From the IMG/VR virus record IMGVR_UViG_3300025636_000007, positions 1 to 49,038 of that record: DNA of 49,038 nt; one strand, 5' to 3'. The stretch is from a virus. The position numbers and the translations under genes were made by a program. Under the pieces are notes generated by a model. It did no database searches. It was not told the origin of the DNA and saw nothing but the letters and a program-made list of their open reading frames with translations. Positions 3,001 through 41,712 of this stretch are shown here, in pieces (the first letter of the stretch is position 1; the number at the start of each line of letters is the position of its first letter).

Positions 3001-3859
3001 CAAGGTCTTGTGAAAGAACTGACTCAGCGGCAGTCGCACGTGATACTTCGTCGGCAAGGTCAGACTGTAATGCGTCAACGTTTGCTTCTTCCGCAGTAAG
3101 ACGAACATCTAATGCCTGGTCACCTGATACGCGAGCAGCAACTTCTGTTGTGATTTGTCCTTGTAGGTCAGCCTCGACACCAGATGCGCGTGTTGTTTCA
3201 TTAGCAATCGCAGTTGCGTTTGCAGATTCAGCAGCAACAGCACGAGTTACTTCGTCAGAAATAGCACCAGAGTTAGCAATCACAGACGCAGATAGAACAT
3301 CATCAGCATCTTCGAATGCAGCAACGATTTCTGCTAAAGAGTTAAGAGCAGTCTCGTCAGTGTTCGCCAAGATGTTATCAATACGTACCGATAACGCAGC
3401 GTCAGCACTTTGATATGCGGTTTCGATTGCGTTTTCACGACCAGTGGCACGAGTTACTTCATTAGAAATAGCAGTTGCGTTCGCAGATTCAGCGGCAGAT
3501 GCACGTACTACTTCAGCATCAACTGCAGATTGTAGTAATGCTTCAGCAGATGATGCGCGAGTAGTTTCTACCGCAACAGCATCACTAATATCCTGAGCGA
3601 CAGCAGTCTGTGCGCGGACAGGTGTGAAATACAAGTTTTCACCTTCTGACAAATCATCGGTAGAGAAAGATGCGAAGAATGCGTCAGCACCAATTTTCTT
3701 CAGTGAGTCGGAACCCACATCGTAAAGTAGTGTGAAACATTGCCCCGGATCTAACATACCCGTAAGGGTGCTTTGACCCTGTACTACACTTTCGTCTAAT
3801 TTAGTATTTAAGACTGCCTTGTCGGCTAATGCAGGTGATTTTATTTGTCTAAATGACAT
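1..3859 (-). CDS. Giant coiled-coil tail fibre protein, N-terminal part (runs off left edge)
   Basis: This frame is open from an ATG at 3859 to the window edge, giving 1,286 residues without a stop. A GGAG ribosome site sits just upstream. After a short unique N-terminus (MSFRQIKSPALADKAVLNTK), which probably attaches to the baseplate or a neighbouring fibre, the protein is almost entirely short repeats of the type EVTRATAAE, ISNEVTRA, EGRATVLE and DGRLTVNESDIDSLE. These are rich in Ala, Glu, Asp, Thr and Val and predict long trimeric coiled coil. Such repeats are typical of long tail fibres. The C-terminal receptor-binding tip is outside the window. I see no TATAAATA directly upstream, so it may be read from the promoter before the 4274 gene. 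The exact fibre class is not assigned. Confidence 0.85.
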   Translation of the reverse strand, partial: MSFRQIKSPALADKAVLNTKLDESVVQGQSTLTGMLDPGQCFTLLYDVGSDSLKKIGADAFFASFSTDDLSEGENLYFTPVRAQTAVAQDISDAVAVETTRASSAEALLQSAVDAEVVRASAAESANATAISNEVTRATGRENAIETAYQSADAALSVRIDNILANTDETALNSLAEIVAAFEDADDVLSASVIANSGAISDEVTRAVAAESANATAIANETTRASGVEADLQGQITTEVAARVSGDQALDVRLTAEEANVDALQSDLADEVSRATAAESVLSQDLADEVLRATGAEAANASSIEQEISARTVADTAIRTDLTSAINSGDAATLASAKAHDALLVGDASVDGTSGNTVTARIATAKAEAIADADASVAAEQTAREIADTGLQTEIDAEEVRAAAEEARIEAKVDAEVVRATGEEARIEAKLDNVISNTDSAALDSLTEIVAEFQKVDGEISALVSSNTTAISTEAGARASGDSVLQTNIDTEAATRAAADTSLQGQIDNIELDYVARDVVVKDAAFADATQKADQAEADAIAHADAQDTALIGDASVDGTSGNTVSARILSAQQAANTYTDGQVSAEAATRLAADNALALRATAVEGRATTLEGEMDAVEADIVSETAARVAGDSVLQGNLDVEIARAIAAEGVNSDAIAAETVRATAAEGVNATAISNEVTRATGVEAGLRVDVDANTSGVATNAAAITNEVTRAKAAEAANAQAIVDEATARSNGDTALQTGLNNEIQARIDGDAALRSDIDINTGDISDLDSDLSAEIARATAAELVLSQDLASEVVRATGIEGGLRTDVDTVTGRVDAIIGTSPETLDTLQEIVAAFEDADSDIQGIISANSGRLSVNESDIDAVELRATDLESRAGSLEGRATVTEAKDVVQDGRLTVNEGDIDSLETKVGSATLETVASDLSGAVNELHTQVDLEAGKVSTLEGEMDAVEGRATVLETRATNIEAKDVEQDGRLTVNESDIDSLEAKVGDSSVALDTTAQTLVGGINEVHGELDAVEARVTTNETGISTNVTAISTEKTRAEGQESLIRSEFAAADSALETAYIAADAVVLASAKSDATTKANDAEANAKVYADTIVGDEAVARENADTVLQSAITAEESARISGDAALSNRVTVVETEMTATQSGAGLATDGSYVAPSGSNYLDASTSLKDADAKLDAAIKAEVTRASGVENVLTQAIGNEEAARIAGDSDLSASLSSEVARAVAAEGVLTSGVNTNAQSIVDEAAARVAADLVLQNQIDFIKSNVDSAALDSLTEIVS

Positions 3860-3914
3860 TATGGAATCTCCATTGAGTTTTAGTTAGGATTGTGTTTAAA
3901 CGTTTAATAATATA

Positions 3915-4274
3915 CTAACGAAATTTAATATAGATGTCCGCACCTGAAGGTGGGATTTCAAAGAATTGTATAACGTCGTCTATGGTTTCATAAATTTCTT
4001 CTGGGTGTTGTAATACATCATTTACCCAGACATCAATTAAGTCCGCTCTAGCGGGAGTACCATTAAGAGTGAAGACCGCAGTAGTACCATCCGATATAAT
4101 CGATTGCGCATCTGGTATTACAGTGGTTTTACTTGTTGAAGAAGAGGTTCCTTCAATCAAATCAAATAGCTCAGTTTCTTGGCCTGGAGTTTGTTCAACT
4201 TGCGTTTGTTTCTGTTTCGCAAGATTATACAAACTTTCAGCTAGTACCCGATTGAAAGATTTTCCATTTATCAT
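3915..4274 (-). CDS. Small fibre-associated virion protein
   Basis: This 119-residue protein of unknown family lies between two fibre genes. The N-terminal third (KSFNRVLAESLYNLAKQKQ) looks helical, the middle is Ser/Thr-rich linker, and the C-terminal half (TTAVFTLNGTPARADLIDVWVNDV) looks like a small beta domain similar to modules found in phage fibre proteins. A late promoter lies 38 bases upstream. The ribosome site is weak. A five-codon upstream ORF (MTASQ) ends in a TGA that overlaps this ATG, which could couple translation. It probably acts as a fibre connector or adaptor, but that is inferred only from position. Confidence 0.7.
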   Translation of the reverse strand: MINGKSFNRVLAESLYNLAKQKQTQVEQTPGQETELFDLIEGTSSSTSKTTVIPDAQSIISDGTTAVFTLNGTPARADLIDVWVNDVLQHPEEIYETIDDVIQFFEIPPSGADIYIKFR

Positions 4275-4311
4275 TGAGACGCCGTCATAAAAAGAGTTAA
4301 TATACGAATGT

Positions 4312-4319
4312 TATTTATA
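4312..4319 (-). promoter_or_regulatory. T4-type late promoter
   Basis: TATAAATA on the minus strand, 38 bases before the start of the 119-residue gene. This is the -10 element recognised by the gp55/gp33/gp45-modified host polymerase. Just upstream of it (4320-4334) lies a 7+1+7 inverted repeat, TAAGATT-A-AATCTTA on the minus strand, of unknown role. Confidence 0.75.
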
Positions 4320-4344
4320 TAAGATTTAATCTTAATATAATGTC

Positions 4345-6105
4345 TTAATTGACTATCGCACCGTTTATATCGTAAATATCTATTCTATAATGACTACCGT
4401 GATTACCATCAAGTTTATCCGCGTCAGTAGCAGTTGACGCATTACCTTGAAGGTCTCCCACGAATGTCGATGCGGTTACTGTATCAAATTCTACAGAGCT
4501 CGCGACATCAATATCGAATTGACCAGTTAATGGGTCATATACTAATCCATTACCGGCAGAGACCACGTTACGTGAACGTGAAGTTGTGAAATACTGATTA
4601 TCCCCTTCAGGAACTTCAGTGGTAGTGATACCGTCTATGGTATCTAGTGCTTTCTGAATAGTATCATCAGAACCAGAAAGTAGTCCGTCAAAATTAGTTA
4701 CATCAGCAAATATATCTGAGGCAATTACTGTTTGTGGTATTACCGATACGGGTACTGGAAAATTAGTCCGTATTGGTTGACTACCACCAAATTGAAAATC
4801 ATATGTAGTATTAGTGTTACCAGTAACTTCATTAGCGTAGTATTTTATTACTATGCGGTCAGTTGCTATAAAGTTAGTTGCGGGTAATAACGCATCAGCA
4901 TAAAATTCTACATAAGTTGTTTGAAGAACCTTTGCCGTGTTGGATGATGTAGATAGTAATGTTTCTACACCCGCACTACTTCTTTTATATATTTCAAAGT
5001 AAAATGTTGCTGAGCCTGGCGCGCCATCTGGGTTAACTCTTACATTACCCACCGTATGAATATTGATGACCCCAGTATTACCAACTAAGACACCCTGTTC
5101 CGTAGAAAGTTCCGCAATTAAATTATTAGTACCCGTAAATGAACCCGTGTTGATATCTACTGCGATATCATTATAATCTGAGTCATTAATGTCAGTGACC
5201 ATCTTAGTATATACACCATCAACCGCAATAGTAGCGGTCGTCGGGTATAGTACTATGGCAGATGTCAACGACGAAATGTCAACTTTTCTATCATGTAATT
5301 CATCAATAGCTTGTTGAACATTTGTAGCAACTTGGTCACTATCAGGAACATAGGATACTGAAGCGGCACTTATATTCAATGATTCGACGAACTGTGTATC
5401 CACCTCATTATTGATAGCAGATATAACATCACTGAGTGTTACTACAGGGTCACCATTAAGACGGAAACTTCCGAATATGTTTACACCCGCGCTATCTACA
5501 TCAATACGGTCACTATCACGATATTGAATTTTAAAATCACCACCATTATAACCAAGATGTTTTAAAATCGTGTTGGTGCCGTTATGATATAATCTAGTTT
5601 CTTCGTCAGTACCTACAGTATATGAATAACCATCATCTAAAATGAAGTCGTTATCAAAAGAAGCACCCTCAGAATTATATGATGATATTTGTACAACCTG
5701 ACCATCCGCAATGGGATAAGCAAAAGTTATAGATTCTCCATCATTAGCAGTAAAATCTATACCTTGATGAAGTAGTACACCATTCAGATGTACCTGTATA
5801 CGTGTAGGAGTAGATAAGTCGTATTTTAGTATGTTCCCTGCGTCATCCGCACCAGAGACTGTTTGTAAAGTTCCGTCAGACGTGTAAATATAGTTATTAA
5901 AAGTCGATGAAAGACCAGAACCAGAAGATGCACCAACTTGGATAATCTGTTGGATTCCATCATCATATTCTTTTTTTAGAAACAGTTTACCATCAGCGGT
6001 GTTTATTGCTAATTCACCGAGTTGTAACTGTTCTACCGTTGGTACGTTGCCTGGGACGGCACTACGTCTTAAACGGATATCTATATTATTAGCCAATGTA
6101 GGCAC
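4345..6105 (-). CDS. Tail fibre / baseplate-attached structural protein (586 aa)
   Basis: The protein begins MPTLANNIDIRLRRSAVPGN and continues VPTVEQLQLGELAINTADGK. This N-terminal module recurs in fibre proteins of marine T4-like phages and probably docks the fibre. The start codon is GTG; no in-frame ATG precedes the conserved module. Later regions carry HLNGVLLHQGIDF (beta module), a segment around residues 160-220 typical of fibre shafts, and a C-terminal STFVGDLQGNAST-ADKLDGNHGSHYR motif found near fibre ends. It is a virion appendage component; receptor specificity cannot be read. The ribosome site overlaps a 14-bp palindrome at 6118-6131, which may restrict translation. Confidence 0.8.
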   Translation of the reverse strand: MPTLANNIDIRLRRSAVPGNVPTVEQLQLGELAINTADGKLFLKKEYDDGIQQIIQVGASSGSGLSSTFNNYIYTSDGTLQTVSGADDAGNILKYDLSTPTRIQVHLNGVLLHQGIDFTANDGESITFAYPIADGQVVQISSYNSEGASFDNDFILDDGYSYTVGTDEETRLYHNGTNTILKHLGYNGGDFKIQYRDSDRIDVDSAGVNIFGSFRLNGDPVVTLSDVISAINNEVDTQFVESLNISAASVSYVPDSDQVATNVQQAIDELHDRKVDISSLTSAIVLYPTTATIAVDGVYTKMVTDINDSDYNDIAVDINTGSFTGTNNLIAELSTEQGVLVGNTGVINIHTVGNVRVNPDGAPGSATFYFEIYKRSSAGVETLLSTSSNTAKVLQTTYVEFYADALLPATNFIATDRIVIKYYANEVTGNTNTTYDFQFGGSQPIRTNFPVPVSVIPQTVIASDIFADVTNFDGLLSGSDDTIQKALDTIDGITTTEVPEGDNQYFTTSRSRNVVSAGNGLVYDPLTGQFDIDVASSVEFDTVTASTFVGDLQGNASTATDADKLDGNHGSHYRIDIYDINGAIVN

Positions 6106-6117
6106 CCTTACATTCAG

Positions 6118-6131
6118 TCCCTATATAGGGA
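6118..6131 (-). promoter_or_regulatory. Palindrome overlapping the ribosome site of the 586-aa fibre gene
   Basis: TCCCTATATAGGGA is a perfect 14-bp palindrome between the late promoter (6171-6178) and the GTG start (6105). Its 3' arm supplies the only obvious Shine-Dalgarno-like sequence (AGGGA), about 11 bases before the GTG. In RNA the arms could pair and hide this site, although the loop would be very tight. As DNA it could instead bind a dimeric protein. Confidence 0.4.
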
Positions 6132-6170
6132 AATATATTACAATTTAAAAAATACTAACTTTATATAAAG

Positions 6171-6178
6171 TATTTATG
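6171..6178 (-). promoter_or_regulatory. Variant T4-type late promoter
   Basis: CATAAATA on the minus strand, 66 bases before the 586-aa fibre gene. It differs from TATAAATA at the first base only. Confidence 0.55.
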
Positions 6179-6197
6179 TGTATTTTAAAAACGTATA

Positions 6198-7592
6198 TTA
6201 GTAACTACCACCGTCCAATTGATATATTGTAACAGCCCCGTTGGTTACAGTAAATTGGTCAGAGTCGAAACTTGCGACACCAAGATTGGTAGTTGAAGCT
6301 AACTCCGCGCTGATAAGTAATTCATTAGTTTCATCAGCATAGGTAAGGTCAATTCCTTCACCTGCTGTTAATAAACTAGATACTTTATCATCAATATATT
6401 CGTCTATTGAAATATCATTGATAGATAAAGGAGCAAGAACATTTAATCCTTTGTCAATGTTTATCTGGTCTTTCGTTGCGTCGTATACAATTGATACGTT
6501 CGCACCAGAAATAAATATACCAGCACCATCAGCCTCAGCAGGAGTTGTCGCTTCATCCGCTAAAGTAAGTGTGAGGTCATTAACCGACATTACCGTCGAG
6601 TTAATTGTAGTTTGTGTACCTTGAACAACTAGGTCACCACGAATTACTAATGTACCACCGTCCGAATCAGTCGGAGCAGGGTCTAAGTATAACGTGTTAG
6701 ATGAGTCGGTAGAATATAGGGTATTACCTTCTAGTCTTAAATTACCAACTTCAAGAGAAGTAAGGTTTTCGACTACAGGATTGAGACCAGTTGTGACAGT
6801 GTTTGTGTCTGGGTCATAGGTGACGTTTAAATTATCACCGGCAGTAAAGTTTAGGTCTGAATCCAATAAAGATATTGTATCGCCATTTACAGTGAGATTG
6901 GTACCCACAAGGACTTCGTCTGCTGAAGTTAATCTACCATCAGAATCAACAGTAAACGTCGGTATGGATGTCTGTGACCCATATGTTCCTGCTGTTACGC
7001 CAGTAGGTACTAGACCAACTGTAATGGAGTTTCCGTCAGAGTCAGCAACCGTAGCAATACCACTACCACCAAGAAGACTAAACGATTCTGTGTTTAGATA
7101 TATGTCCCCTGAACCACTATCACCCGCAAAGGAGAAGTTCGAACCTAGTTCTTGAGTTGTTATTAAATTATCGACATAGAACTTAGTAGCAGCATCTGAA
7201 CTATCAATTGGGTCTGATAGGTCTGTTAGACGGGCGCCATTAACAGTAAAGGTTGACAGTGGGTCACCGCCAATACCGCCGCTAGTAAAATTTATACCAC
7301 CTATAGTTAATTGGTCAAGTGCGCCATCAGAATCAACAATAAGTGCTTTGTTAGGGAGATTAACACCATACGATGCGTCAGCTTCACCGTGTAGTAAGTT
7401 AACGTAATGAGCACCACCAATAACGGTATGATTAGCAGCATCACCATTTACTTCTACACCAGTACCGATATATAAACGGTCACCGCCATTTTGTCCGTTA
7501 TCAGGTAAGTATGAATATGCTAATTCACCCTGACTGAGCGTGGTAGGATTACCAGCGACACCGGAACGTTTTATTCTAATTATTGATGCCAT
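6198..7592 (-). CDS. Tail fibre structural protein (464 aa)
   Basis: The N-terminal module is MASIIRIKRSGVAGNPTTLS-QGELAYSYLPDN, comparable to that of the neighbouring 586-aa protein, followed by a shaft of beta-rich Ser/Asp/Thr/Gly repeats. Residues about 300-345 include GDLVVQGTQTTINST and SVNDLTLTLADEATTPAEAD, a fibre motif I recognise from marine myoviruses. The C-terminus ends INGGSY-like (TIYQLDGGSY). Its ATG overlaps the stop of the upstream 91-aa gene (TAATG), so the two are translationally coupled. It probably forms a fibre or whisker with its neighbours. Confidence 0.8.
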   Translation of the reverse strand: MASIIRIKRSGVAGNPTTLSQGELAYSYLPDNGQNGGDRLYIGTGVEVNGDAANHTVIGGAHYVNLLHGEADASYGVNLPNKALIVDSDGALDQLTIGGINFTSGGIGGDPLSTFTVNGARLTDLSDPIDSSDAATKFYVDNLITTQELGSNFSFAGDSGSGDIYLNTESFSLLGGSGIATVADSDGNSITVGLVPTGVTAGTYGSQTSIPTFTVDSDGRLTSADEVLVGTNLTVNGDTISLLDSDLNFTAGDNLNVTYDPDTNTVTTGLNPVVENLTSLEVGNLRLEGNTLYSTDSSNTLYLDPAPTDSDGGTLVIRGDLVVQGTQTTINSTVMSVNDLTLTLADEATTPAEADGAGIFISGANVSIVYDATKDQINIDKGLNVLAPLSINDISIDEYIDDKVSSLLTAGEGIDLTYADETNELLISAELASTTNLGVASFDSDQFTVTNGAVTIYQLDGGSY

Positions 7593-7871: not shown

Positions 7872-8228
7872 TTACCTTGTCACCGAAGGAGAAACTTTAA
7901 TCTTACCTTCCAGTATGCGTTCTACAATAGGATTTTCGTCACTATCATTAAAAGAAAGTTCTACATCATACACATACCTTCCACGAGAAGATAATGCGTC
8001 CGTCTGAGTATTAGTTAGAGATAATGTGACTACACCATCGGTGGCAGGACTTGCTACGATTGCGGTGAAATCTACCGTATCCTCTGCACCACTATTAAAG
8101 TTCTTTTTCATTTTAGCAGACACGGTATGACCGGTCAAATCTTTTGTTGACCCATCTGCGTTTACTAGTTCCAACTGTAACGCTACATCAGTACCTTGGT
8201 CAATAGTAAAGTCTTCGTAAGTTGCCAT
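7872..8228 (-). CDS. Ig-like baseplate/fibre protein (118 aa)
   Basis: The sequence MATYEDFTIDQGTDVALQLE followed by LTGHTVSAKMKKN and RYVYDVELSFNDSD-VERILEGKIKVSPSVTR matches the pattern of small beta-sandwich modules at the N-terminus of baseplate upper proteins in many phages. The family match is from memory. It is the first gene after the 8231-8285 terminator and its embedded late promoter, so it heads the late fibre transcript 8228-6198. Confidence 0.72.
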   Translation of the reverse strand: MATYEDFTIDQGTDVALQLELVNADGSTKDLTGHTVSAKMKKNFNSGAEDTVDFTAIVASPATDGVVTLSLTNTQTDALSSRGRYVYDVELSFNDSDENPIVERILEGKIKVSPSVTR

Positions 8229-10317: not shown

Positions 10318-13300
10318 TTACGCAATTCTCACATATAGTGTATAACCCTGTACAGTCTGGAACGTAGGTTGGATAGTGGCACCAACATAGTTTCCTACGA
10401 ACGCACGGGAGTAATTACCTGTAAAGTCTCTTGAGTAATTACCAGTAAAGTCACGAGCATATTCACCCGTAAAGTTACCCGCATAGGTAGAGTTTCTTGT
10501 GCGACCATAGTCAGCAGAATATGCTGAAGTACGTAGTCTTGAGTATGCGGATACGCGAACTCGACTGAAAGTATCAGTTGAATTACGAGTATACTCACCT
10601 AAGAATCCACGTGTATAGTCACCAATAAAGTTACCAGCGTACGCACTTACACGGTTACGAATATAGTTACCCGCAAATGTTCTTGCGTAGTTACCAGTAA
10701 AATCACCAGTAAATACAGTTGCGTAGGCTCCTGCGTATTCACCTGTAAATGTTCTTGCGTAGTTACCAGTAAAATCACCCGCATATTGACGAGCATAATT
10801 ACCGATATAATCACGGGCATAGTTGCCAGTGAAAGTAGTAGCATATGTACCCGCATATTCACCTACGAAACCGCGTGAGTAAGCACCAGTATATTCGCCA
10901 GCAAATCCACGAGAGTATGTACCAGTATATTCGCCAACAAATCCACGGTTATACGTACCAGTATATTCACCCGCAAAACCGCGTGAGTATGTACCAGTAT
11001 ATTCACCTGTAAATGTTCTTGCGTAGTTACCAGTATATGACGATGGACGCGTACGTGAGTAAGTCTCTATACGAGTTCTTGAGAAGTCACGAGCATAGTT
11101 ACCAACATAAGAAGTAGCATATGTACCAGTATATTCACCAGCGAAGTTACGAGAATAGTTACCCGCATATGACGATGGACGTGAGCGAACATATGAAGAC
11201 ACTCGAGTTCTTACAAAATTACGTGAATAGTTACCAACATAAGAATTCGCATATGTACCAGTATATTGACCAGAGAAACCGCGTGAGTACGTACCGGCAT
11301 ATTCACCAGCGAATCCACGTGAGTATGTACCAGTATATTGACCAGAGAATCCACGAGAATAGTTACCAACATAGTTTCCAGCAAAGTTGCCGACGTAGTT
11401 GCCCGCAAAGTTACCAGCGAAGTTACGTGCGTAATTACCAGCAAACGTTCTTGCGTAGTTACCGACAAAGTCACCCGCAAAATCTGTTACACGGTCACGT
11501 GCGTAGGCACTTGAACGAGTTGCGACATAAGCAGAAACACGTGTACGAGCATAAGCAGAGTAACGAGTACGTGTTGAAGTACGAGCATATTCACCAACAA
11601 AGTTTCCTGCATATTCACCGGCAAAACCACGTGCGTAGTTACCTACGAAGTCGCCTGCGAAACCACGTGCGTAGTTACCAACAAAGTTACCAGCGAAGTT
11701 TGTTACACGGTCACGAGTAAAGTCACCAACATAATCAGTAATACGTGTACGAGCATAAGCAGAACTACGGCTGCGTGTGAATGCAGTTACACGGTCACGA
11801 GTGAAGTTACCAACGTAATCAGTAATACGAGTACGAGCATATGCTGAAGTACGAGTACGACCGAATGCAGTTACACGGTCACGAGTGAAGTTACCAACGT
11901 AATCAGTAATACGAGTACGAGCATAGGCACTATAACGTGTACGAGCAGAAACTCGAGTACTTGTACGAGAATAGTTACCAACAAAGTCACCAGTAAAGTT
12001 TGTTACACGGTTACGAGTAAAATCACCAACATAGTTAGTAATACGAGTACGGGCATACGCACTATAACGAGTTCTTGTTGAAGTACGAGTACTTGTTCTA
12101 GCATAGTTACCAATAAAGTTTCCTACGTAGTTACCTGTATATGTGGTCGTATAATTACCGACAAAGTTACCAGCATATCCACGCGCGTAGTTACCACCAT
12201 AGTTACCCGCATAATAACCAGTGCGAGTGTATGTTCCCGTTGCGGTATATGTGGTCACACGAGTACGGGCATAGTCGCCAACGTAGTTACCAGCATACTC
12301 CAGTGTGCGAGCATAACCAGCTGTGCGAGCGTAGTCTGTTACACGAGTACGGACATAGTTACCGACGAAATTAGCGATATAATTACCGGTGTAATACTCG
12401 GCGGTAGATCCTATGCGATATCTTGCGAATCCGGCAGGACTTACTCTGCTACGAGTTGAAGTACGTGTGAAGTATGCGGTTCGAGAATAATTAAGCGTCC
12501 GTGTGAAGTAGGACAAGTACCCCCACATATAACGTGCGTAACTGACATACCGAGCATAGTTATCTTGACCACCATAGTTACCAACGAAGTCACCAGTATA
12601 AGTTACAGTACCGGCATAGTTACCTTCATATGTAGCAGTAGTACCATATGGATTACTGTACCTAATATAACTCGCTGAGTAATCTACTGTACGGTCAGTA
12701 TTACGTACAGCGGCATAATTACCTGTAAAATAAAGCACGCTTGTGTAGTAACCGGGCCTTGTGTAAGTTGCAGTATAGGTACCGGCATAGTTACCAACAA
12801 AGTCACCAACATAATAGAGTGGACTTGTGTATGCTAAAGTTCTGGTAGATGTACGTGAGTATGTTCCCGCATAAGCAGAATAACGAGTACGAGCAGACGT
12901 ACGCGTAAAGTCACCAATACGATTACGTATGTAATCAGTTGCGCGAGTTCTAGCATATTCACCAACAAAGTTACCACCAAAGTTACCAGCATATCCACGG
13001 GCATAGTTACCTATGAAATCACCAGTAAATGTAGTCGCATAGTTACCTACGAAGTCGCCAGCGTAGTTAGTAATACGAGTTCTAGCATATTCACCAACAA
13101 AGTCTCCGGCAAAGTTACCCGCATATCCACGAGCATAGTTACCGACAAAGTTACCAGTATATGTGGTCGTATAATTACCGATAAAGTTACCAGCATAGTT
13201 ACCCGCATAGTTTCTTGCGTAGTTACCTACGAAGTTTCCGGTGTAAGTAGTAGTGTAATTACCGATAAAGTTACCAGCATAGTTACCCGCATAGTTTCTT

Positions 13301-15462
13301 GCGTAGTTGCCTACGTAGTTACCAGTATATGTGGTTGTATAATTACCGATAAAGTTACCGGCAAAGTTTGTTACACGGTCACGTGCGTAAGCTGAAACAC
13401 GAGTACGTGTTGAAGTACGAGCGTAGGCACTATAACGTGTACGGGCAGATGTGCGAGTTGAGGTACGCGCATAGTTACCAATAAAGTCACCCGCGAATCC
13501 ACGAGAATAATTACCGATAAATCCACGAGCATAGTCACCAACAAATCCACGAGAATAATTACCGATAAAGTTACCGGCAAAGTTTGTTACACGATTACGA
13601 GCATATGAAGATACACGCGCTCTTGAGTAAATACCAGCGAAGTTAGTTACACGGTCACGAGTGTAGTCTGTTATACGAGTGCGACCGTAGTCAGCAGAAT
13701 AAACAGAAACACGGTTACGTGAGTAAGTTCCAGCATAAGTTGATACACGATTACGGGCATATGTTCCAGCATAAGCAGAAACACGGTTACGTGAGTAAGT
13801 TCCAGCGAACGTTGAACCACGAGTACGAGTAAACGCTCCAGTGTAGTTTCCTACAAATCCGCGAGAATAGTTACCCGCAAAGTTACGGGCATATGTTCCA
13901 GCATAAGTTGATACACGTGTACGACCATATGTTCCTGAGAACGATGATGGACGTGTACGAGTGAATGCTCCAGTATATTGACCAGAGAATGAACGAGAAT
14001 AGTTACCTACAAAGTCTCGAGCATATGTTCCCGCATAAGATGATACGCGGTTACGAGCATATGTTCCTGTGTAAGTTGATACGCGGTTACGAGCATATGT
14101 TCCAGCATAAGATGATACACGGTTACGTGAGTAAGTACCTGAGTAAACCGAAACACGGTTACGAGCATATGTACCTGAGTAAACCGAAACACGGTTACGA
14201 GCATATGTTCCCGCGTAAGTTGATACACGACCACGAGTATACGCTGATGGACGAGTACGTGAGAACGTACCAGTAAAATCAGTAATACGGTTACGAGTGA
14301 ATGTAGAAACTCGAGCTCGGGCATAATAACCAGTGAAGTTACCAGTAAACCCTTGTAGACGAACACGCGTGTAAGTCGATTGACGGTTTAATACATATTC
14401 ACCAGTAAATGTACGGCTGAAATTAGTTACGCGGTCACGTGAATAAGTTGATTGACGGTCGCGTGTATAGTTACCTACGAAATCTCCGACATATTCTCCA
14501 GCGAAGTTACGAGTATAATTACCCGCAAAATCACGTGTATAGTTTCCGATGTAGTTTCCGACAAAATCTTGAGCAGAAGTACGAGTAGATACGCGACTGA
14601 ATGTAGAATTACGGTCACGTGTATACGCAGAAACACGTGTACGGACATATGCGCTATTACGAATACGTGAATATGACTGGTCAATAATATCACGCGCAGT
14701 ATTTAACGCGGAACCTACTGACTTCCATACGCCAGGTAAAGTTGGTGCACCTTGCGTTGATGAACGCAACTGATAAGAACCGATGTTACCTACAATAGCA
14801 CGTAGAGTTTTAATTCGTTGTCCAAGAGTATACTGAATTTGGTCATCAGTCATTTCTTGGAAACCTTGATAGTCACCATTGACATCATACAATGTAGCAA
14901 CTGGGCGAACAGCAGAAACTGTAGGCATAGCAACACGTAAGTATATATGATATGATGTTGCGCTTCCGTCACCACGGGTATCACTGAATACGTTCGGTAT
15001 AAATTGAACGTAGTCGGTGCCTGGGCTTGAAGAGGCAAGTTTGAATGTTCCTTGGTAATCATTCGACGCAAGATTACTGAGAACACGATTCGCTAAGTTA
15101 TTCAAATCACCGTCTACCATTTCGTAGAAGCCTGGGTTTGAAGTAGCGTAATAACCTACTGGTCGGACAAAGTCTGCGCCTGATTCACTAGCAGAACCAC
15201 CATTTTGATAAACAGTAGTTGTTGTAGTACCAGAAGTGATTTGTGAAGCCGGATGAGTCCCTGTCGATTCGTTAAAAAACGTATCGACGAACGTACCGAT
15301 ATTCACATCACCCGTAAGACTTAAATTACCAACATCAGAAGTGCCCGATGTTGATAGTGCCTGTCCCACTGCATACGCAAGATAATTTTCTTCCGTAGGA
15401 GTGAATTCCTGTAGGTCACCATTCGAATTTTTAATTTTTAGTGGTATACTCGATGCTGACAC
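10318..15462 (-). CDS. Giant tetrapeptide-repeat virion protein (1,714 aa)
   Basis: The start is GTG at 15462, with an AAAGAGAG ribosome-like site upstream. Residues 1-262 form a non-repetitive domain (for example GDVNIGTFVDTFFNE and RPVATLYDVNGDY) that probably anchors the protein. From about residue 263 to 1692 the sequence is a continuous four-residue repeat, consensus [GRST]-[NTDES]-[YFR]-[ASTVI], seen as GNYA, RNFA, GTYA, RNRV, SSYA, GDFV. The last 22 residues (TIQPTFQTVQGYTLYVRIA) are again unique. The repeat is rich in Tyr, Phe, Arg, Asn and Gly; I saw no Lys, Cys or His in it. Such a protein is almost certainly an extended virion fibre or coat. I recall similar Tyr-Gly-Asn repeat proteins in marine T4-like phages, but no defined fold or function. 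Confidence 0.85.
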   Translation of the reverse strand: MSASSIPLKIKNSNGDLQEFTPTEENYLAYAVGQALSTSGTSDVGNLSLTGDVNIGTFVDTFFNESTGTHPASQITSGTTTTTVYQNGGSASESGADFVRPVGYYATSNPGFYEMVDGDLNNLANRVLSNLASNDYQGTFKLASSSPGTDYVQFIPNVFSDTRGDGSATSYHIYLRVAMPTVSAVRPVATLYDVNGDYQGFQEMTDDQIQYTLGQRIKTLRAIVGNIGSYQLRSSTQGAPTLPGVWKSVGSALNTARDIIDQSYSRIRNSAYVRTRVSAYTRDRNSTFSRVSTRTSAQDFVGNYIGNYTRDFAGNYTRNFAGEYVGDFVGNYTRDRQSTYSRDRVTNFSRTFTGEYVLNRQSTYTRVRLQGFTGNFTGYYARARVSTFTRNRITDFTGTFSRTRPSAYTRGRVSTYAGTYARNRVSVYSGTYARNRVSVYSGTYSRNRVSSYAGTYARNRVSTYTGTYARNRVSSYAGTYARDFVGNYSRSFSGQYTGAFTRTRPSSFSGTYGRTRVSTYAGTYARNFAGNYSRGFVGNYTGAFTRTRGSTFAGTYSRNRVSAYAGTYARNRVSTYAGTYSRNRVSVYSADYGRTRITDYTRDRVTNFAGIYSRARVSSYARNRVTNFAGNFIGNYSRGFVGDYARGFIGNYSRGFAGDFIGNYARTSTRTSARTRYSAYARTSTRTRVSAYARDRVTNFAGNFIGNYTTTYTGNYVGNYARNYAGNYAGNFIGNYTTTYTGNFVGNYARNYAGNYAGNFIGNYTTTYTGNFVGNYARGYAGNFAGDFVGEYARTRITNYAGDFVGNYATTFTGDFIGNYARGYAGNFGGNFVGEYARTRATDYIRNRIGDFTRTSARTRYSAYAGTYSRTSTRTLAYTSPLYYVGDFVGNYAGTYTATYTRPGYYTSVLYFTGNYAAVRNTDRTVDYSASYIRYSNPYGTTATYEGNYAGTVTYTGDFVGNYGGQDNYARYVSYARYMWGYLSYFTRTLNYSRTAYFTRTSTRSRVSPAGFARYRIGSTAEYYTGNYIANFVGNYVRTRVTDYARTAGYARTLEYAGNYVGDYARTRVTTYTATGTYTRTGYYAGNYGGNYARGYAGNFVGNYTTTYTGNYVGNFIGNYARTSTRTSTRTRYSAYARTRITNYVGDFTRNRVTNFTGDFVGNYSRTSTRVSARTRYSAYARTRITDYVGNFTRDRVTAFGRTRTSAYARTRITDYVGNFTRDRVTAFTRSRSSAYARTRITDYVGDFTRDRVTNFAGNFVGNYARGFAGDFVGNYARGFAGEYAGNFVGEYARTSTRTRYSAYARTRVSAYVATRSSAYARDRVTDFAGDFVGNYARTFAGNYARNFAGNFAGNYVGNFAGNYVGNYSRGFSGQYTGTYSRGFAGEYAGTYSRGFSGQYTGTYANSYVGNYSRNFVRTRVSSYVRSRPSSYAGNYSRNFAGEYTGTYATSYVGNYARDFSRTRIETYSRTRPSSYTGNYARTFTGEYTGTYSRGFAGEYTGTYNRGFVGEYTGTYSRGFAGEYTGAYSRGFVGEYAGTYATTFTGNYARDYIGNYARQYAGDFTGNYARTFTGEYAGAYATVFTGDFTGNYARTFAGNYIRNRVSAYAGNFIGDYTRGFLGEYTRNSTDTFSRVRVSAYSRLRTSAYSADYGRTRNSTYAGNFTGEYARDFTGNYSRDFTGNYSRAFVGNYVGATIQPTFQTVQGYTLYVRIA
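10389..14676 (-). repeat. Coding tandem repeat, 12-nt unit, about 357 copies
   Basis: The tetrapeptide repeat appears in DNA as degenerate 12-base units, with larger near-identical blocks of 12 residues (GTYARNRVSSYA) and about 36 residues (GNFIGNYTTTYTGN-VGNYARNYAGNYA, around 13140-13370). The stretch around 12420-12850 is the most diverged part but keeps the four-residue spacing. The repeat stays in one open frame over 4.3 kb. Confidence 0.9.
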
Positions 15463-18108: not shown

Positions 18109-18338
18109 TATCTATTCCTTACTAATTGAGCAAGAAGACTTTTAATATCTGATAACTCACCTTTCAAAGTCGTGACCTCATTCGAAAGGTTTATCATTTT
18201 TTCAGACTCTTGTCTTTTCGCTTCTTTTAGTCTTTTACTTTGAGCAATCTCTCCCTTATTAGTGTTCAAGATTGCCCCTGTTTGTTTATCTCTCACAAGA
18301 TTGTTATGTCCCGTGACCTTCTGAAATCTACTATTCAT
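18108..18338 (-). CDS. Small coiled-coil virion-cluster protein (76 aa)
   Basis: The start MNSRFQKVTGHNNLVRDKQT followed by TGAILNTNKGE is a recognisable small-protein signature in marine T4-like phages, always among baseplate genes as far as I recall. Residues 30-76 predict a coiled coil (INLSNEVTTLKGELSDIKSL). Both ends overlap neighbouring genes, so it is translated in step with the DUF4815 protein and the 95-aa protein. Role unknown; an assembly factor or minor structural protein is likely. Confidence 0.78.
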   Translation of the reverse strand: MNSRFQKVTGHNNLVRDKQTGAILNTNKGEIAQSKRLKEAKRQESEKMINLSNEVTTLKGELSDIKSLLAQLVRNR

Positions 18339-21300
18339 TAAGATGCCAATGCGAGTGAACGTAAGTCAGTAATAATAGGAGACCTAGATGAGTTACTTGA
18401 TTTCATAACAATCTTAACTTGGAACGCTACGAATGGGTCTAGGTCTTCAGTCGTGTATTCATATTCGCGAATCGCTGCGACGGTATCATCTGAAGATACT
18501 ATTGCGTCTATATCTATAGGTAACCAAGAAGCGGTATTAATATTACCGGCCTCCGTCGCCGTACGTACATAAACTTCAAAGTCAGCAGCAGATGGACGAT
18601 TAGCAGAGAATAATACTTTAACCGCAATCGATGATTCATCAAGAATAACAGGTGTAGTAATATGCTGTGCCGCATCATTGTTATCAATAACATTTTCTAA
18701 CGCAAGTACACCCGCACGTTGTAAATCAATTACAGGGGATACTTTACTATCATTAGTAGTCATTGTTATGTTAAACTTCATAGTAGGTGATGTATTATTA
18801 TCACTAGACTGTACTAAAGTAGGAGTGACATTAGTATTCACATCATTGAGCAACGTTAATGCTGTTGGTAATGGATTACCTACATTACTAGTTGAAGTAT
18901 TACGACTAAGACCATAAGACTCACCGTTTACTCTATCTACTGTAGATGTTATTACGGTAGACTGTGGTGTTAATGTCTGAACCATTGGAAGATATTCGTC
19001 CATCATTACCTGATAGGTAGCGAGAACATTTGAACCACCAGTTTCAGTACTAGAATTTGCTACTATATCTACCCCTGCGTCAACAATGATATTATACCCT
19101 AAAAATGAGACGTTGTCAATAGTATGTTGAGTATTTATCGCATTAGCACCAAGACCCGCAACATCACCAGTCACACCGGTGATAGTAACAGTATCATTCT
19201 TAGAAAATCCATGACCTACATGAGAAACGAATACTGTTGTTGACCCTTGTAATGTTCTTAATGGATTCTCGACCAAAATAGTCTTAGGTAGTGTAGCATT
19301 CTCTAATTGAACCATACCTGAAGACTGGAAGTCAGCACGGAATAATTCGAACATCAAATCTTTTGTCTGGTCTGCTGTCCAAGTAGAACCATTCTGAGAC
19401 ATGAATAACGAACCTAAGTGCGGCTGTTTGTTAACACGACTATCAGTAGAACCTATTAGGAATTGGTATGTTTCAGAAACATATGAGTTATACTTGACTG
19501 ATTCAGCAAGTAACACTATAGCATATTCTTCGCCTGGTGTCAAGAATACAGGTTCATCAAACACAATGTCAGTACCAACAACATCAGATAACTGTGGGTT
19601 AGTCGACAACGGTGTGATATTGATGTCCGCTGGATTAGTAAATTTAACTGAGCCCGGCACAATTACATTTGTAGGTTGACCATTTTCTACCGAACGAATC
19701 TGTACTTGTAAAGGAATAACATCGTCTTTACTTTCCATGAATACCCGAACTTTAGATAAGAATATACCATTAGGATTTTCTAGTGGGTTTACTATAAAAG
19801 TTTGTGCAAGAGGATCTCTCCACCAATGCGTATTAATTTCTCTTGTTGTTCTAATAGTACGTTGTATTGTTTCAATAGTACCTGTAGACGTGTATATAGC
19901 ACGTGCCGTACTAATCGCATTGGCATCATCGTTTGTACTGATATCAAGAAGTTTAAATTCTTGAACACCTGTACGGAAACTTATTGACGGTGTACAGGGT
20001 AGGAAGAAAGAACCTATTAATTGTCCTTTTTCATCTGTAGTCAATGATGTTTGTCCAAATGGAGTTGATGTAGCATTAGAGTATTCGTTACCAATAACTT
20101 GAGTTTGGTTAGAGAATTGAACGAATTCTGTTTCTTGACGAGTCCATTCACTTACTGAACGGTTACCGAAGAATGGGAACATCTTAGAATTTGGACGTAG
20201 TCCGTCTACTTTGAAGTATATTCTACGTGAACGCATGAACGGAATGATTTCTACATCCAACACACGGTCACCAAGATTTTCTTGGATAAAAGTAGTGGTA
20301 GTTCTATTAAAAATTCTTGCTCTACTTGTCAACCAGTTGTCACTAAACGTAACTGTTCTACGGGTAGCAGTCGTCAACAAATCAGGTAGACGTGTAGTCT
20401 CCACCCACTCATCAGATGAAGGTGATAACATAGAATGACCAGTCGAAGTTATTACTTCAAATGGGTTAACATTCAATGTACTAGTAGCAAGTGTCTGTGA
20501 CACAAATTTAACATCACTGAAAGGTAGAGTAACTAAATCACCATTGTGAGCCGCTATATTAGCAGGATTATTATCGTCCATTCTTAATTGAACAAAATGT
20601 TCACGGAATGAAGGACGTAATCTATTAACAGGGTCGATTGATGCTCTATAATCAGGATTTGTCACATCAGAGAAGTTGAATGAGGTAAACCCATCAGCAA
20701 TGAATCCTGCTTTAGTTCGTGCGAGACCGTTTGCGTCGACTACAGTTAACGCATTTGTATTAGTCTCCAGTAAACTTAATGTTGTCAATTCATACAATTC
20801 ATTAACACGGTCGTCAAGAGCAGCAATATCTTTCATAGTATATCGTTTATGAGAGATTTGTGTTTTGACCAAGTCATTTTCGTCCAATGTAAATGGATTC
20901 AAACTAAATGTGTATAATGCCAAAGAACCAGTTGGAATATTAGGTTCTCTGGGGTCGAGGGACGCCTCACCTTGGACTATTTGTAACTCACCTGAACCAA
21001 TACCACCTTTACTATTAACAGTGTTAGCAATCAACACATCAATACGTGGCATATAGTAATTAACGTCTGCTGATATAATACTCTTGTTCTTAGGAAGTAG
21101 ATTTATACTAGCAGGATTAATTGCGTATTCAGTTAGTTTGCTCGGTCGAAAATCTACCACATTTCTTAATGATACTGTTTTCCCTGAGGCTAGAGTGTGC
21201 GATGGGATATCTTTATATTCTATATCATCATATGAATTAACATCGAAGAAGTCACCTGAACTATGTGTAAAGTAAGTGAATGTAACTTCTATTTCAGTTG

Positions 21301-23278
21301 GAATACCATCATACAATGGAATGCTTAGACCATCTTTAACTGTTAGATTAGCACGGTCATAAAAGTTATCACGTTGCCCACCATCAAACACGAATAAATT
21401 ACTTATGTCTGTATGGTTAGCAGGGTCAACATCAGTAACATCCATAACACTTACTAGTTCTATAACGTCAACTTTTTCTAGTTCAATAGAATCCACATTA
21501 ACATCAGTACTAAGTGATACACTACCACTTGCCAGAGTCTTAGATCTGCGTGTTGGATTAGATAAACGCACATAGTGAACAATGATATATTTAAAATCAT
21601 CATTCAATCCAGCATACACCCAATTGGTTCCATTATAGGTTAGTGTGTAATCAACGCCTTGTACTAGTTCATCAAATTTTGATATAGCATCTGTACCGCC
21701 AGCAATTGACCCGTCAGCGTTTTCCGTAGATTGAACAATAATCCAATCTCCAGCATGTTCCGCGTCTCCTGCTATTACAATTTGACCTGCGGTAGGCGCT
21801 TGTTTGATAACTTTCTGTACAGTGAAGTTGTAATCAGTAATACTTTCTGGACGAGTGTTAGGTAATTCGAAAAGCATGTTATTATCTGTAGAACCAAATA
21901 ATGTAATCGGGCCTGGGGTTCCACTATTATTACTATCGATTGGATATATTACACCACCGTCAACTCCCGCTGGGACATATAGGAATGTAACATCTCTAAA
22001 GTTATAAGGCGGGTTCATTTCAATATCAAATACGTATAGACGCCATTCATTACCGACTTTTTCTATTCCGCGTATATTACATGTCCCGACATTAGACTCA
22101 CCACTAGCACCTCGAAGGGCAACACCTTTAAAACCATCGATAACACTTAATATGCCCGATGATGTTGATGGGTCGATTAGGATATAGTTACCGTAGTTTA
22201 CAGTAATTCCGTTATTATTAATTTCTGTGGTTAGTCGAGGTTTATCGATACTCAATGGTGTGTTCGGGAAGTCTAGACGATAACCGTCAACATATGCGGT
22301 ACCTGGCGTAACTTCTAAGTCTAATGTATCGTTATCACCATCACTGAATATCGCTTTAAATTCTTTTACTACATAATCACCAGATTCTTCTTTTGTACGT
22401 AAAGCAAGAAGGTCATTCAGTTTATTATAGTCATCAACCGCTTCGACTTGGTCATTGATTACACCATTTACTATACGACCGATGTATACAAAGTTTTCAC
22501 CTTCAGCGATTTGGTCACGTGTAGTTAATACCAGACGGATTCTATAACGGTCTGCACCCGGAGCTGCTCGATTAGGAAATGCTCCCTGATTGTCAAATAA
22601 TGCGTCAGTGTCATTTACATTAACAATATCTTGAATGACGCGGAAACCAAAGTCTGCCGTAGGTTTGTCATCATACTTGGATAGGAATGCTGACTGTTGT
22701 GGAGCATAAACAAAGTGTCCTTGTACAAAAAAGTCACCTTCGACCTCATTGATTTTTGAACCACGACCCGTCGCAAGACTAGGTGCCGCTTGTAGAGTAA
22801 CCGAACCACCTAGTGGATGCGTACCTATAAAGGTAGCACCATCAGCAACTCGTGGAGTTGTGGTGTTATCAGTTGATGATGTAGTATTAGTATACTTAAC
22901 TACAAAAGTGGCAGGGTCGCCATTTTCAGCAGCAATCATTTCTACTACTTGGAATACTAAAGGATCAGCACCACCTAGGTTCACCGTAAAGGTAACACCT
23001 GAGTAGTCATATCCATCTAGACCATATGTACTGGTATCGAGTTTAATATATTCAAAGGTTTGAACCGTTGGATTACCCGTACGTACAGCAGCACCTTCTT
23101 TGAAGATGTTATTACCGAATCGAGCAATCTCATTTTGGATGATAGTTTGCGATTGAGTCAACTCACGTGCTTGAAGAGCCTTACCCGAGTTGAATAGAAT
23201 TCGATAATAGTTATCACTGTCTTTATAATCATCCTTATATACAGTTTCAAACGTTTCTTTTGTAAAATTATTTGGCAT
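18338..23278 (-). CDS. Large baseplate/fibre protein with DUF4815-type N-terminus (1,646 aa)
   Basis: The N-terminal region DSDNYYRILFNSGKALQARE followed by LTQSQTIIQNEIARFGNNIF is the DUF4815 signature found in large virion proteins of T4-like marine phages. The rest is mostly beta-rich, with long Ser/Thr/Asn/Asp segments, and a C-terminal region (SSNSSRSPIITDLRSLALAS) typical of that family. It lies nine bases after gp8, in the place where T4 has gp9/gp10 or related peripheral baseplate parts. It is probably a baseplate wedge or fibre-anchoring protein; equivalence with T4 gp7 or gp10 cannot be decided from sequence alone. Confidence 0.82.
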   Translation of the reverse strand: MPNNFTKETFETVYKDDYKDSDNYYRILFNSGKALQARELTQSQTIIQNEIARFGNNIFKEGAAVRTGNPTVQTFEYIKLDTSTYGLDGYDYSGVTFTVNLGGADPLVFQVVEMIAAENGDPATFVVKYTNTTSSTDNTTTPRVADGATFIGTHPLGGSVTLQAAPSLATGRGSKINEVEGDFFVQGHFVYAPQQSAFLSKYDDKPTADFGFRVIQDIVNVNDTDALFDNQGAFPNRAAPGADRYRIRLVLTTRDQIAEGENFVYIGRIVNGVINDQVEAVDDYNKLNDLLALRTKEESGDYVVKEFKAIFSDGDNDTLDLEVTPGTAYVDGYRLDFPNTPLSIDKPRLTTEINNNGITVNYGNYILIDPSTSSGILSVIDGFKGVALRGASGESNVGTCNIRGIEKVGNEWRLYVFDIEMNPPYNFRDVTFLYVPAGVDGGVIYPIDSNNSGTPGPITLFGSTDNNMLFELPNTRPESITDYNFTVQKVIKQAPTAGQIVIAGDAEHAGDWIIVQSTENADGSIAGGTDAISKFDELVQGVDYTLTYNGTNWVYAGLNDDFKYIIVHYVRLSNPTRRSKTLASGSVSLSTDVNVDSIELEKVDVIELVSVMDVTDVDPANHTDISNLFVFDGGQRDNFYDRANLTVKDGLSIPLYDGIPTEIEVTFTYFTHSSGDFFDVNSYDDIEYKDIPSHTLASGKTVSLRNVVDFRPSKLTEYAINPASINLLPKNKSIISADVNYYMPRIDVLIANTVNSKGGIGSGELQIVQGEASLDPREPNIPTGSLALYTFSLNPFTLDENDLVKTQISHKRYTMKDIAALDDRVNELYELTTLSLLETNTNALTVVDANGLARTKAGFIADGFTSFNFSDVTNPDYRASIDPVNRLRPSFREHFVQLRMDDNNPANIAAHNGDLVTLPFSDVKFVSQTLATSTLNVNPFEVITSTGHSMLSPSSDEWVETTRLPDLLTTATRRTVTFSDNWLTSRARIFNRTTTTFIQENLGDRVLDVEIIPFMRSRRIYFKVDGLRPNSKMFPFFGNRSVSEWTRQETEFVQFSNQTQVIGNEYSNATSTPFGQTSLTTDEKGQLIGSFFLPCTPSISFRTGVQEFKLLDISTNDDANAISTARAIYTSTGTIETIQRTIRTTREINTHWWRDPLAQTFIVNPLENPNGIFLSKVRVFMESKDDVIPLQVQIRSVENGQPTNVIVPGSVKFTNPADINITPLSTNPQLSDVVGTDIVFDEPVFLTPGEEYAIVLLAESVKYNSYVSETYQFLIGSTDSRVNKQPHLGSLFMSQNGSTWTADQTKDLMFELFRADFQSSGMVQLENATLPKTILVENPLRTLQGSTTVFVSHVGHGFSKNDTVTITGVTGDVAGLGANAINTQHTIDNVSFLGYNIIVDAGVDIVANSSTETGGSNVLATYQVMMDEYLPMVQTLTPQSTVITSTVDRVNGESYGLSRNTSTSNVGNPLPTALTLLNDVNTNVTPTLVQSSDNNTSPTMKFNITMTTNDSKVSPVIDLQRAGVLALENVIDNNDAAQHITTPVILDESSIAVKVLFSANRPSAADFEVYVRTATEAGNINTASWLPIDIDAIVSSDDTVAAIREYEYTTEDLDPFVAFQVKIVMKSSNSSRSPIITDLRSLALAS

Positions 23279-40086: not shown

Positions 40087-41712
40087 ATGTCATTATCACA
40101 AATAGTCGAAAAGTTGCATGAGTCTAATTATATTGCTGCTGATACTAATGAAATTGTAGGCAAAATAGAAAAACATCTCGAAGCGCGTCGGATAATAGAT
40201 GAACAGGCCGCGTTAGATGATTTGGAATCGAGTAGTGAATCGCGTCAAAACTCTCCGACTAACAATAACCGCCCAGGAGCACCGGCACCCGGCAGAGGAA
40301 ATAGTAAATTCTCTGAGAAAATGGGTGACGCGTTGTCGGGCGGTATTTCTATTGGTGCTAAAGGTCTCGGTATCGCTACGGGTCTTGGTGCCTTAGGTTT
40401 TGGTATTGGCGCATTCTTTACGGGGTTAGCCGCTGGGGACAAAGCACAAGAACTGATTGGTGCTGACATGCAGACCACCAAAAAGAATATGATTACACTA
40501 GGTCAAGCATTCGCGGAGACCCCCACAGAGGGTCTTATAAAAATGGGAATTGCCGCGGGAATTGGTGCCAAGTTTGGTAGTATCAAAGGTGCCCTTGGTA
40601 TGACATTTTTTGGTGCGGGTCTTGGTGGTTTCTTCGCGGGTCTTGCGTTAGGTGATAAAGGTGCTGAACTTCTTAAAGTAAGTGGTTCTGGTCTCACTAC
40701 CATGATGGTATCTTTCGCTGAAGGTTTAAACGCATTCAGCGGCAAATCATTGGTTGCTTTTGGGGGACTTGTCGCGTTGGCAGCGTCTCCATTCGGTGCG
40801 AAAGCGTCATTCATGCTTCCCTTATTAGGTGTTGGTGTGGCAGGATTCTTTGGTGCCATTGCGGGTATCGGTGACCTTTTGGCTAAGGGTGGGATAACCG
40901 GTGAAGGTATGAAGACCATGATGGTCAACTTAGCAGAAGGATTAAATCCACTAGGAGAACTAGATGGTGTGAACCTGCTTGCTGTAGGTGCCGCTATGAC
41001 TGCGATTGGTGTTGGTATGGTAGCATTATTGGGCGGTAAAGGACTATCTGCCATAGGGGATGCTATAGGTAAAATTTTCGGTTCGGATGAAGATGAGGAT
41101 GTTTTTACAAAAACTGCTAAGTCTCTAAGAAAGTTAGAGGGTATTGACGCAAGTAGATTCACAGGAATTGATAGTGTCGCTAACTCCATATCGGGTCTTA
41201 CCTCGGCAATCAACAGTATGAACGACCTTGATATTGATGTGGGTGATATTGAAGATGAGATGGAGAAATTCGCAAAATCTATTGCGGGTAGTATGGTAAT
41301 TTTCAACTCAATGTGGAACGGTGGTAAAATCGGTGAAGGTTGGATGGATGGGATTAGTGAGATAGATTTTGGTGTAGGTTTGAAAGATTTACCTATAGAT
41401 AAAATCAGTTCTAAAATCTCTGTGATGACTAATGGTATAAAGGATGGTTTCCAATCGGTCACTGGGGGTGGTGAAGAATCTACCCCGGCAGCAAGTGTAT
41501 CACCAGTAAAGAAATCTACGACTTTAGGTAAGGCAGAGAGTCTGGCTCAGGTTCAGAGAGCAAATATGGAAATGGTTGATTTTGTTGGTAGTGCGACTGC
41601 GATAGATAGTTCAACTAAGGTTAACAATGTTAATAACAGTTCTAATGTACACCATAGTGGCGGTTCTGGTGCGCATGATGCACTAGACCCAATGATGGGA
41701 AGTAGAGCATAG
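40087..41712 (+). CDS. 29: Tape-measure protein (gp29-like)
   Basis: The 541-residue protein follows the gp26/gp51 region, as a tape measure should; T4 gp29 has 590 residues. The N-terminal 50 residues are helical and charged, followed by an Asn/Pro/Gly linker (about 55-72) and a long Gly/Ala-rich hydrophobic core (about 80-325). That core contains three repeats at exact 72-residue spacing: GAFFTGLAAGD (108), GGFFAGLALGD (180) and AGFFGAIAGIGD (252), each followed by a MMVSFAEGLN-type motif (first copy degenerate). The C-terminus is Asn/Ser/His-rich. It sets tail length and is threaded through the tube. At about 1.5 angstrom per residue it fits a tail near 80 nm. Confidence 0.78.
   Translation: MSLSQIVEKLHESNYIAADTNEIVGKIEKHLEARRIIDEQAALDDLESSSESRQNSPTNNNRPGAPAPGRGNSKFSEKMGDALSGGISIGAKGLGIATGLGALGFGIGAFFTGLAAGDKAQELIGADMQTTKKNMITLGQAFAETPTEGLIKMGIAAGIGAKFGSIKGALGMTFFGAGLGGFFAGLALGDKGAELLKVSGSGLTTMMVSFAEGLNAFSGKSLVAFGGLVALAASPFGAKASFMLPLLGVGVAGFFGAIAGIGDLLAKGGITGEGMKTMMVNLAEGLNPLGELDGVNLLAVGAAMTAIGVGMVALLGGKGLSAIGDAIGKIFGSDEDEDVFTKTAKSLRKLEGIDASRFTGIDSVANSISGLTSAINSMNDLDIDVGDIEDEMEKFAKSIAGSMVIFNSMWNGGKIGEGWMDGISEIDFGVGLKDLPIDKISSKISVMTNGIKDGFQSVTGGGEESTPAASVSPVKKSTTLGKAESLAQVQRANMEMVDFVGSATAIDSSTKVNNVNNSSNVHHSGGSGAHDALDPMMGSRA

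Follow-up and report, generated by a model that had tools for sequence, protein, structure and literature searches.

How a protein of 1,714 residues built largely of tetrapeptides might fold, and what it might do for the virus that encodes it, is the question raised by one gene of the window (the whole stretch of viral DNA analyzed here, 49,038 nucleotides in length). The window is a 49-kb record of a T4-like myovirus, a bacterial virus of marine type, with genes for the baseplate wedge and hub, tail tube, DNA end protector and single-strand binding protein. The gene of the protein under study, designated P0001, is located on the minus strand between baseplate and tail-fiber genes (10318..15462, read from 15462 to 10318); it has a GTG start and a TAA stop, and its product has a mass of 191 kDa and a pI of 10.0. 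Relatives have retained this start codon as well as the N-terminal sequence. A neighboring gene of 118 aa (7872..8228, minus strand) matches the PHROG family 'L-shaped tail fiber protein assembly' (phrog_3304, E 7.7e-16), and a gene of this name is found in the same order in phage C48C1; judging by this match, its product is a candidate assembly factor for the fiber. Another neighbor, of 1,646 aa (18338–23278), matches phrog_358 (E 0) and Pfam DUF4815 (1.5e-51), while a 541-aa ORF on the plus strand (40087–41712), beside the ssDNA-binding protein gene, gave no PHROG match up to E 0.05.

P0001 begins with an N-terminal domain (residues 1–262; 14677..15462, minus strand, as are all parts of the gene), conserved in an alignment of 43 relatives plus the window, which we infer to be an attachment or base domain. 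This is followed by arm 1 (residues 263–902, 160 tetrapeptides; 12757..14676), a tip of 153 aa with its apex at about residue 979 (residues 903–1055; 12298..12756), which is the least conserved region, arm 2 (residues 1056–1695, 160 tetrapeptides; 10378..12297), complementary in type to arm 1, and a conserved C-terminal cap ending in YTLYVRIA (residues 1696–1714; 10321..10377), predicted to be located at the base beside the N-terminal domain.

Residues 263–1694 comprise 358 tetrads in the register [NTD]-[YFR]-[AVTS]-[GRST]. Tyr, Phe or Arg occupies tetrad position 2 in 324 of these (Tyr or Phe in 257), compared to a mean of 127 and a maximum of 145 at the best phase in 2,000 residue shuffles, and Lys, Cys and His are absent from all 1,432 residues. 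The autocorrelation of aromatic residues was 3.3–3.5 at each multiple of four and at most 0.33 at the other lags up to 32; the five-residue period of pentapeptide-repeat solenoids is therefore absent. A previous sequence-only reading of this DNA had reported both the tetrapeptide array and the lack of Lys, Cys and His, and both are confirmed for residues 263–1694. Its register, [GRST]-[NTDES]-[YFR]-[ASTVI], has the correct periodicity and corresponds to ours after rotation. The four-residue phase of the single, strictly phased array that it described also stands, but not the continuity: two arrays flank the tip, inside which the phase is interrupted at about residues 935–986.

Searches with P0001 gave only chance-level Pfam and PHROG matches (no PHROG below E 0.12). 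A sequence search of the PDB was negative, as was a search of the PDB with a profile of the C-terminal part, and a profile of the N-terminal part gave two chance-level PDB matches only (E 0.17 and 2.2). The N-terminal domain was modeled by AlphaFold2 with pLDDT values mostly of 75–94 in residues 1–250 (62 in residues 61–80). In fold searches of the PDB, BFVD and VIA-align with a model of residues 1–480, the best E-values were 0.4 and 0.6 and no match had a Z-score of at least 2; the disordered arm within this model may have hurt the searches. These sequence, profile and fold-model searches found no known fold or family, in agreement with the earlier statement that the repeat matches no known fold, and no account of a comparable repeat, pairing rule or protein emerged from the open-access literature searched.

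A scan of IMG/VR with the single sequence identified relatives at 72 loci, and a profile scan identified 249 stretches, 80 of which were kept. Three alignments were made from the 72 loci (A1, A2 and A3, comprising 43, 38 and 36 relatives, respectively, each plus the window). Among 50,697 annotated phage records there was one clear homolog, WJE88074.1 of phage C48C1 (Kyanoviridae, OQ984149), and screening 84,980 species genomes of bacteria and archaea with six peptide patterns gave 61 pattern matches in their contigs, none of them a relative. A match to Enterococcus phage Riverwalk covers a 332-base stretch with no annotated gene and was treated as a repeat coincidence. Matches to S-RIM2 and S-TIP37 (E 2–5) had pairing scores of 11.7 and 19.0, without a family-like hairpin signal, and antisense self-matches of the gene, which contain stops, were ignored.

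The two arms of P0001 are complementary in antiparallel order. In a leave-one-out antiparallel alignment, residue i of one arm (263–902) matched residue 1958−i of the other (1056–1695), without gaps, over 640 residues. Among the 481 sums tested in P0001, 1958 scored 0.72 per pair and the next best 0.36. The pairing score of P0001 was 463, compared to 203 ± 10.6 (maximum 238) in 100 shuffles of the tetrads of residues 987–1694, a null that applies to P0001 only and with which the scores of short members are not comparable. When 43 ORFs of the window were scored, P0001 reached 467 and the next highest ORF 10.8.

The same register was found across the family, the arms being tested in 50 members and in 16 others out of the 249 matching IMG/VR stretches. 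The 20 non-redundant relatives used for training were selected by k-mer similarity after dropping 3′-open loci, duplicates and eight further loci (L056, L063, L064, L068, L071, L072, L074 and L075), the complete ones of which were checked later among the 50. In these 20 relatives, with tetrad position controlled, the mean conditional mutual information at the antiparallel register was 0.18–0.20 against a background of ∼0.06 (z 3.9–5.5), whereas a parallel-register control was flat (at most 0.065). Of the 121 registers compared in each of the 20, the best was in every case the position-2 register at the array ends or the one offset from it by +2. All 16 complete members kept out of training also paired, from the start of the array to 15–20 residues before the C-terminus; it should be noted that some of them are near-identical to one another, that six pair in two or three segments owing to inserts, and that L156 and L157 are also broken. 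From this held-out set, 47 loci near-identical to known members and four incomplete loci had been left out.

A single ungapped diagonal described the pairing in 46 of the 50 members, while breaks were needed in L006, L056, L071 and L075. Pairing was weak in two members, L074, where it covered only 55 residues at a distance from the array ends, and L072, where it covered 69. A cruder earlier register scan came within 6 residues of the expected sum in 39 of the 46 members listed and was off in the other seven (L003, L004, L006, L014, L064, L068 and L071). L071 is a divergent member, with three pairing segments and phase slips that, unlike those of other members, are often of 1 or 3 residues. Phase segmentation revealed arrays of equal length around an irregular middle (573/573 in L009, 417/417 in L013 and 749/749 in L005). 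An N-terminal domain, two complementary arms, a tip and a YTLYVRxA cap are found in the family of the C48C1 protein.

To describe the pairing, tetrads were named after the residues at positions 2 and 4 (RS, x-R-x-S/T; SR, x-S-x-R; YG, x-[YF]-x-G). The rule that emerged is near-exclusive: RS and SR tetrads face YG tetrads. In 2,618 tetrad pairs from the 20 relatives, counts that are not independent owing to shared ancestry, RS tetrads of arm 1 were opposite YG in 533 out of 540 cases and SR tetrads of arm 1 in 101 out of 103; for arm 2, the listed cells of the table gave 335/337 and 119/119, respectively. YR tetrads face YR or YG in these relatives; RS-RS, RS-SR and SR-SR pairs were absent from the 2,618, and RS-YR occurred once. 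The ancestry problem does not affect a test confined to P0001, in which 71 of the 73 contacts of Arg, Ser or Thr at position 2 were with Gly at position 4′ (mean 30.7 and maximum 47 in 10,000 shuffles), the register itself having been taken from the family.

The three largest direct couplings, A2-B4, A4-B2 and A1-B1, share one register, the other diagonals being weaker, which means that positions 2 and 4′ are opposite each other on one side of an extended strand. The idea that registers 0 and +2 represent two neighbors, one within and one between chains, was rejected, since the direct couplings favor the single register +2. Phase slips within the arms were of 2 mod 4 residues in 52 of 53 cases, and of the 22 slips in arm 1, 15 had a counterpart in arm 2 no more than 8 residues from the mirror position (1.7 expected) and seven had none. 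Slips of 2 mod 4 preserve the side of the strand; together with the same-face pairing, they favor beta-strands, which is the conformation that we infer for the arms from these sequence patterns.

Fifteen pairs of relatives were compared for indels. Between L034 and L038, 60 aa were lost from each arm, at 260 and 268 residues from the base, the arms being otherwise 97–98% identical; between L009 and L005, 176 aa were gained in each arm. Mirror indels of 28 + 28 aa were found in L012/L066, L012/L024, L013/L031 (with sites 40 residues apart in position) and L026/L013, and the summed indels of P0001 and L009 were 112 and 112 aa. The matching was less clean near the tip, and L013/L011 was not clean. 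In one exception, L003/L006, 24 aa were missing from arm 2 only, uncompensated; since the two are otherwise nearly identical, this may reflect assembly collapse.

The tip is the fastest-changing part of the protein. P0001 and L003 are 78% identical in the N-terminal domain and 82 and 78% in the arms, but 42% in the tip, and in four comparisons with P0001 the tips were 42–53% identical and the arms 75–82%.

Tandem ORF pairs with the N-terminal domain motif were observed in six scanned loci (L052, L053, L054, L056, L060 and L063). In L052, which L053 and L054 resemble, the ORFs are located at 439–2937 and 2969–6448. Across the six loci the first ORF has 829–842 aa and the second 815–1160 aa (limited by the records), both with hairpin-type scores; such loci could be read as encoding two fibers of differing length per phage.

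Large inserts in relatives are confined to arm 2. The C48C1 protein has an uninterrupted arm 1 and six inserts in arm 2, five of them longer than 100 residues, each placed between the partners of two consecutive arm-1 residues. A single insert of 221–395 aa, in arm 2 only and ∼380 residues from the base, is present in L137, L138, L141, L145, L147 and L150, and L149, whose segment coordinates are the same as those of L145, has the same insert pattern. A PA14/GLEYA domain is present in the L137 insert (12700–13884), with Pfam E-values of 8e-4 and 6e-5 for matches that fall slightly short of the curated cut-offs; this domain resembles PDB entry 6m8m, described as a 'putative large adhesion protein' (E 2.7e-6). 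One C48C1 insert weakly matches a tail-fiber PHROG (E 0.005). By these similarities, the inserts look like adhesion-type modules placed on a shaft. The inserts of L141, L138, L145, L147 and L150 share a conserved domain of ∼220 residues (RYSDQSNLL...WEPRVDD) at one shaft site, with no Pfam match in L141, L138 and L145, the three scanned. In L075, residues ∼2011–2065 and 2085–2140 contain the stretch HRSYLYYSTDTSTNQQFFEPRVDD..., which is found twice in the C48C1 protein; this doubling is either a duplication or an assembly artifact.

With the antiparallel register, the conserved pairing rule, the mirrored indels and two-residue slips and the variable tip observed in these sequences, P0001 is probably a very long phage tail-fiber or adhesin subunit whose chain forms a hairpin, by analogy a needle like that of T4 gp37. 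The chain would leave the conserved N-terminal base domain and run outward as an extended, strand-like arm 1 of 640 residues; residues 903–1055 would form a variable tip domain at the far end, and arm 2 would return in exact antiparallel register, bringing the C-terminal cap back to the base near the N-terminal domain. Pairing would take place within the hairpin rather than between head-to-tail chains, and three hairpins might assemble into a six-stranded needle, as in gp37, a step suggested by analogy only. If extended, 640 residues at 2.7–3.3 Å would give a fiber of ∼170–210 nm. The tip and the arm-2 inserts may bind the host surface. Predictions with AlphaFold2 gave no fold for arm 1 without arm 2 (pLDDT ∼27), a failure that, taken alone, would fit a need for the partner arm; a monomer in which the tip was flanked by 100 residues from each arm did not form a hairpin either (mean pLDDT 40, pTM 0.23), which counts against the predicted fold.

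The receptor-binding tip of T4 gp37 consists of a collar, a needle and a head, and its chain extends to the variable head, where it turns and comes back. P0001 would share this out-and-back course: the antiparallel register of its arms is present in the sequence, and a hairpin and a dimer fit it equally. The passages on gp37 in PMC7291167 and PMC9659904 describe a needle of six antiparallel strands that carries a receptor-binding head, and the corresponding part of PMC3004832 gives a needle ∼15 nm long, about 150 by 25 Å. At the C-terminus, where the strand of P0001 might correspond to a collar strand, the two are similar over eight residues (FNYIVRLA in gp37, NC_000866; YTLYVRIA in P0001 and YTLYVRxA in the family). 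Unlike gp37, P0001 has arms of 640 residues each and a tetrapeptide pairing rule, and whereas the C-terminal region of gp37 has His pairs (HSH/HTH), residues 263–1694 of P0001 have no His. Sequence and profile searches detected no homology of P0001 to gp37 or any fiber family. The best reading is that P0001 would be an enlarged analog of the gp37 needle, and no membership is claimed.

Other systems are more distant. No PHROG fiber-family homology links P0001 to the L-shaped tail fiber of T5; only the neighboring gene matches the assembly family. Pentapeptide-repeat proteins, right-handed quadrilaterals with a five-residue period, share a short period with P0001 but not the long-range antiparallel complementarity. 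The part of PMC3004832 on T4 gp5C describes a triple-stranded beta-helix with an octapeptide repeat. It is a repetitive, beta-structured phage needle, as P0001 would be; however, its chains are intertwined and its period is 8, compared to period 4 and antiparallel arms of one chain type in P0001. The TGNVTGNL stretches found in structural proteins of cyanophages (S-RIM2 AOO09386.1) also keep a four-residue phase, built from N, a hydrophobic residue, T and G, but they are short, without aromatic residues or Arg and without hairpin complementarity. The true homolog is WJE88074.1, a 'hypothetical protein' of 3,347 aa with 65% identity to P0001 over the N-terminal domain, which shares the C-terminal cap, the hairpin pairing and similar neighboring genes and differs in its arm-2 inserts and its longer arms (1,032 paired residues).

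A hairpin fiber might be real and yet not bind a receptor, serving instead, for example, to bind glycans or to keep virions apart as a decoration of the head or baseplate. We regard this as unlikely: the gene lies among tail-fiber and baseplate genes near a fiber-assembly gene, and the tip is fast-changing, even though the location of P0001 in the virion is predicted from gene context only and one insert resembles a general carbohydrate-binding module. The fiber nature proposed in the sequence-only reading is likely, on the basis of the gene neighbors and the adhesin-like inserts of relatives.

The main rival to the hairpin is an antiparallel homodimer, in which two head-to-tail chains would build a fiber of double length, flanked at either end by N-terminal domains and with the 'tip' halfway along. 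The relation i+j = constant holds equally for such a dimer, which would, however, place the most variable part of the protein mid-fiber. Tips of 9 residues in L064, L068, L141 and L147, a value that is the floor of the method, fit a hairpin turn, and phage fibers are usually trimers attached at one end, which also argues against the dimer; on these grounds we hold it to be improbable.

Each arm could also be a solenoid or beta-helix of its own, with one tetrapeptide per face and 12-residue turns, the two solenoids lying side by side. The identity autocorrelation of P0001 indeed has local maxima at 12 (0.309) and 24 (0.303) residues, but period 8 is nearly as strong (0.283) and no solenoid family was matched. 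Moreover, the strongest direct couplings are residue-exact pairs across the arms, and two-residue slips are mirrored between them. Paired solenoids are accordingly very unlikely, and the solenoid suggested previously is disfavored by the strongest residue dependencies, which join i of one arm to 1958−i of the other. An artifact arising from composition, from the phase of the repeat or from inverted repeats in the DNA has a negligible probability, since, although the array is of low complexity and shuffled tetrads still score positive (203), it is contradicted by the tetrad shuffles, the parallel control, the other window ORFs and the held-out members, and the DNA of arm 1 is only 19% identical to the reverse-complemented DNA of arm 2 at the pairing register, which ranks 493rd among 601 offsets.

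Returning to the hairpin fiber, on balance we favor the view that a near-digital tetrapeptide code (RS and SR with YG; YR with YR or YG; YG with YG) joins the two arms, that length evolves by matched block insertions and that lateral domains are plugged into one arm. Such a self-matching protein 'zipper' is unlike the fiber shafts described in the open-access papers searched. The architecture suggests a simple, length-tunable beta-fiber and prompts the question how two arms so far apart come to change length in step; it also indicates that a 'low-complexity' repeat can conceal long-range, residue-exact structure. The pairing rule would allow the tip, shaft and lateral domains to be located in relatives without homology to known fibers, and the tips and arm-2 inserts are the likely host-binding parts in an uncharacterized group of T4-like phages.
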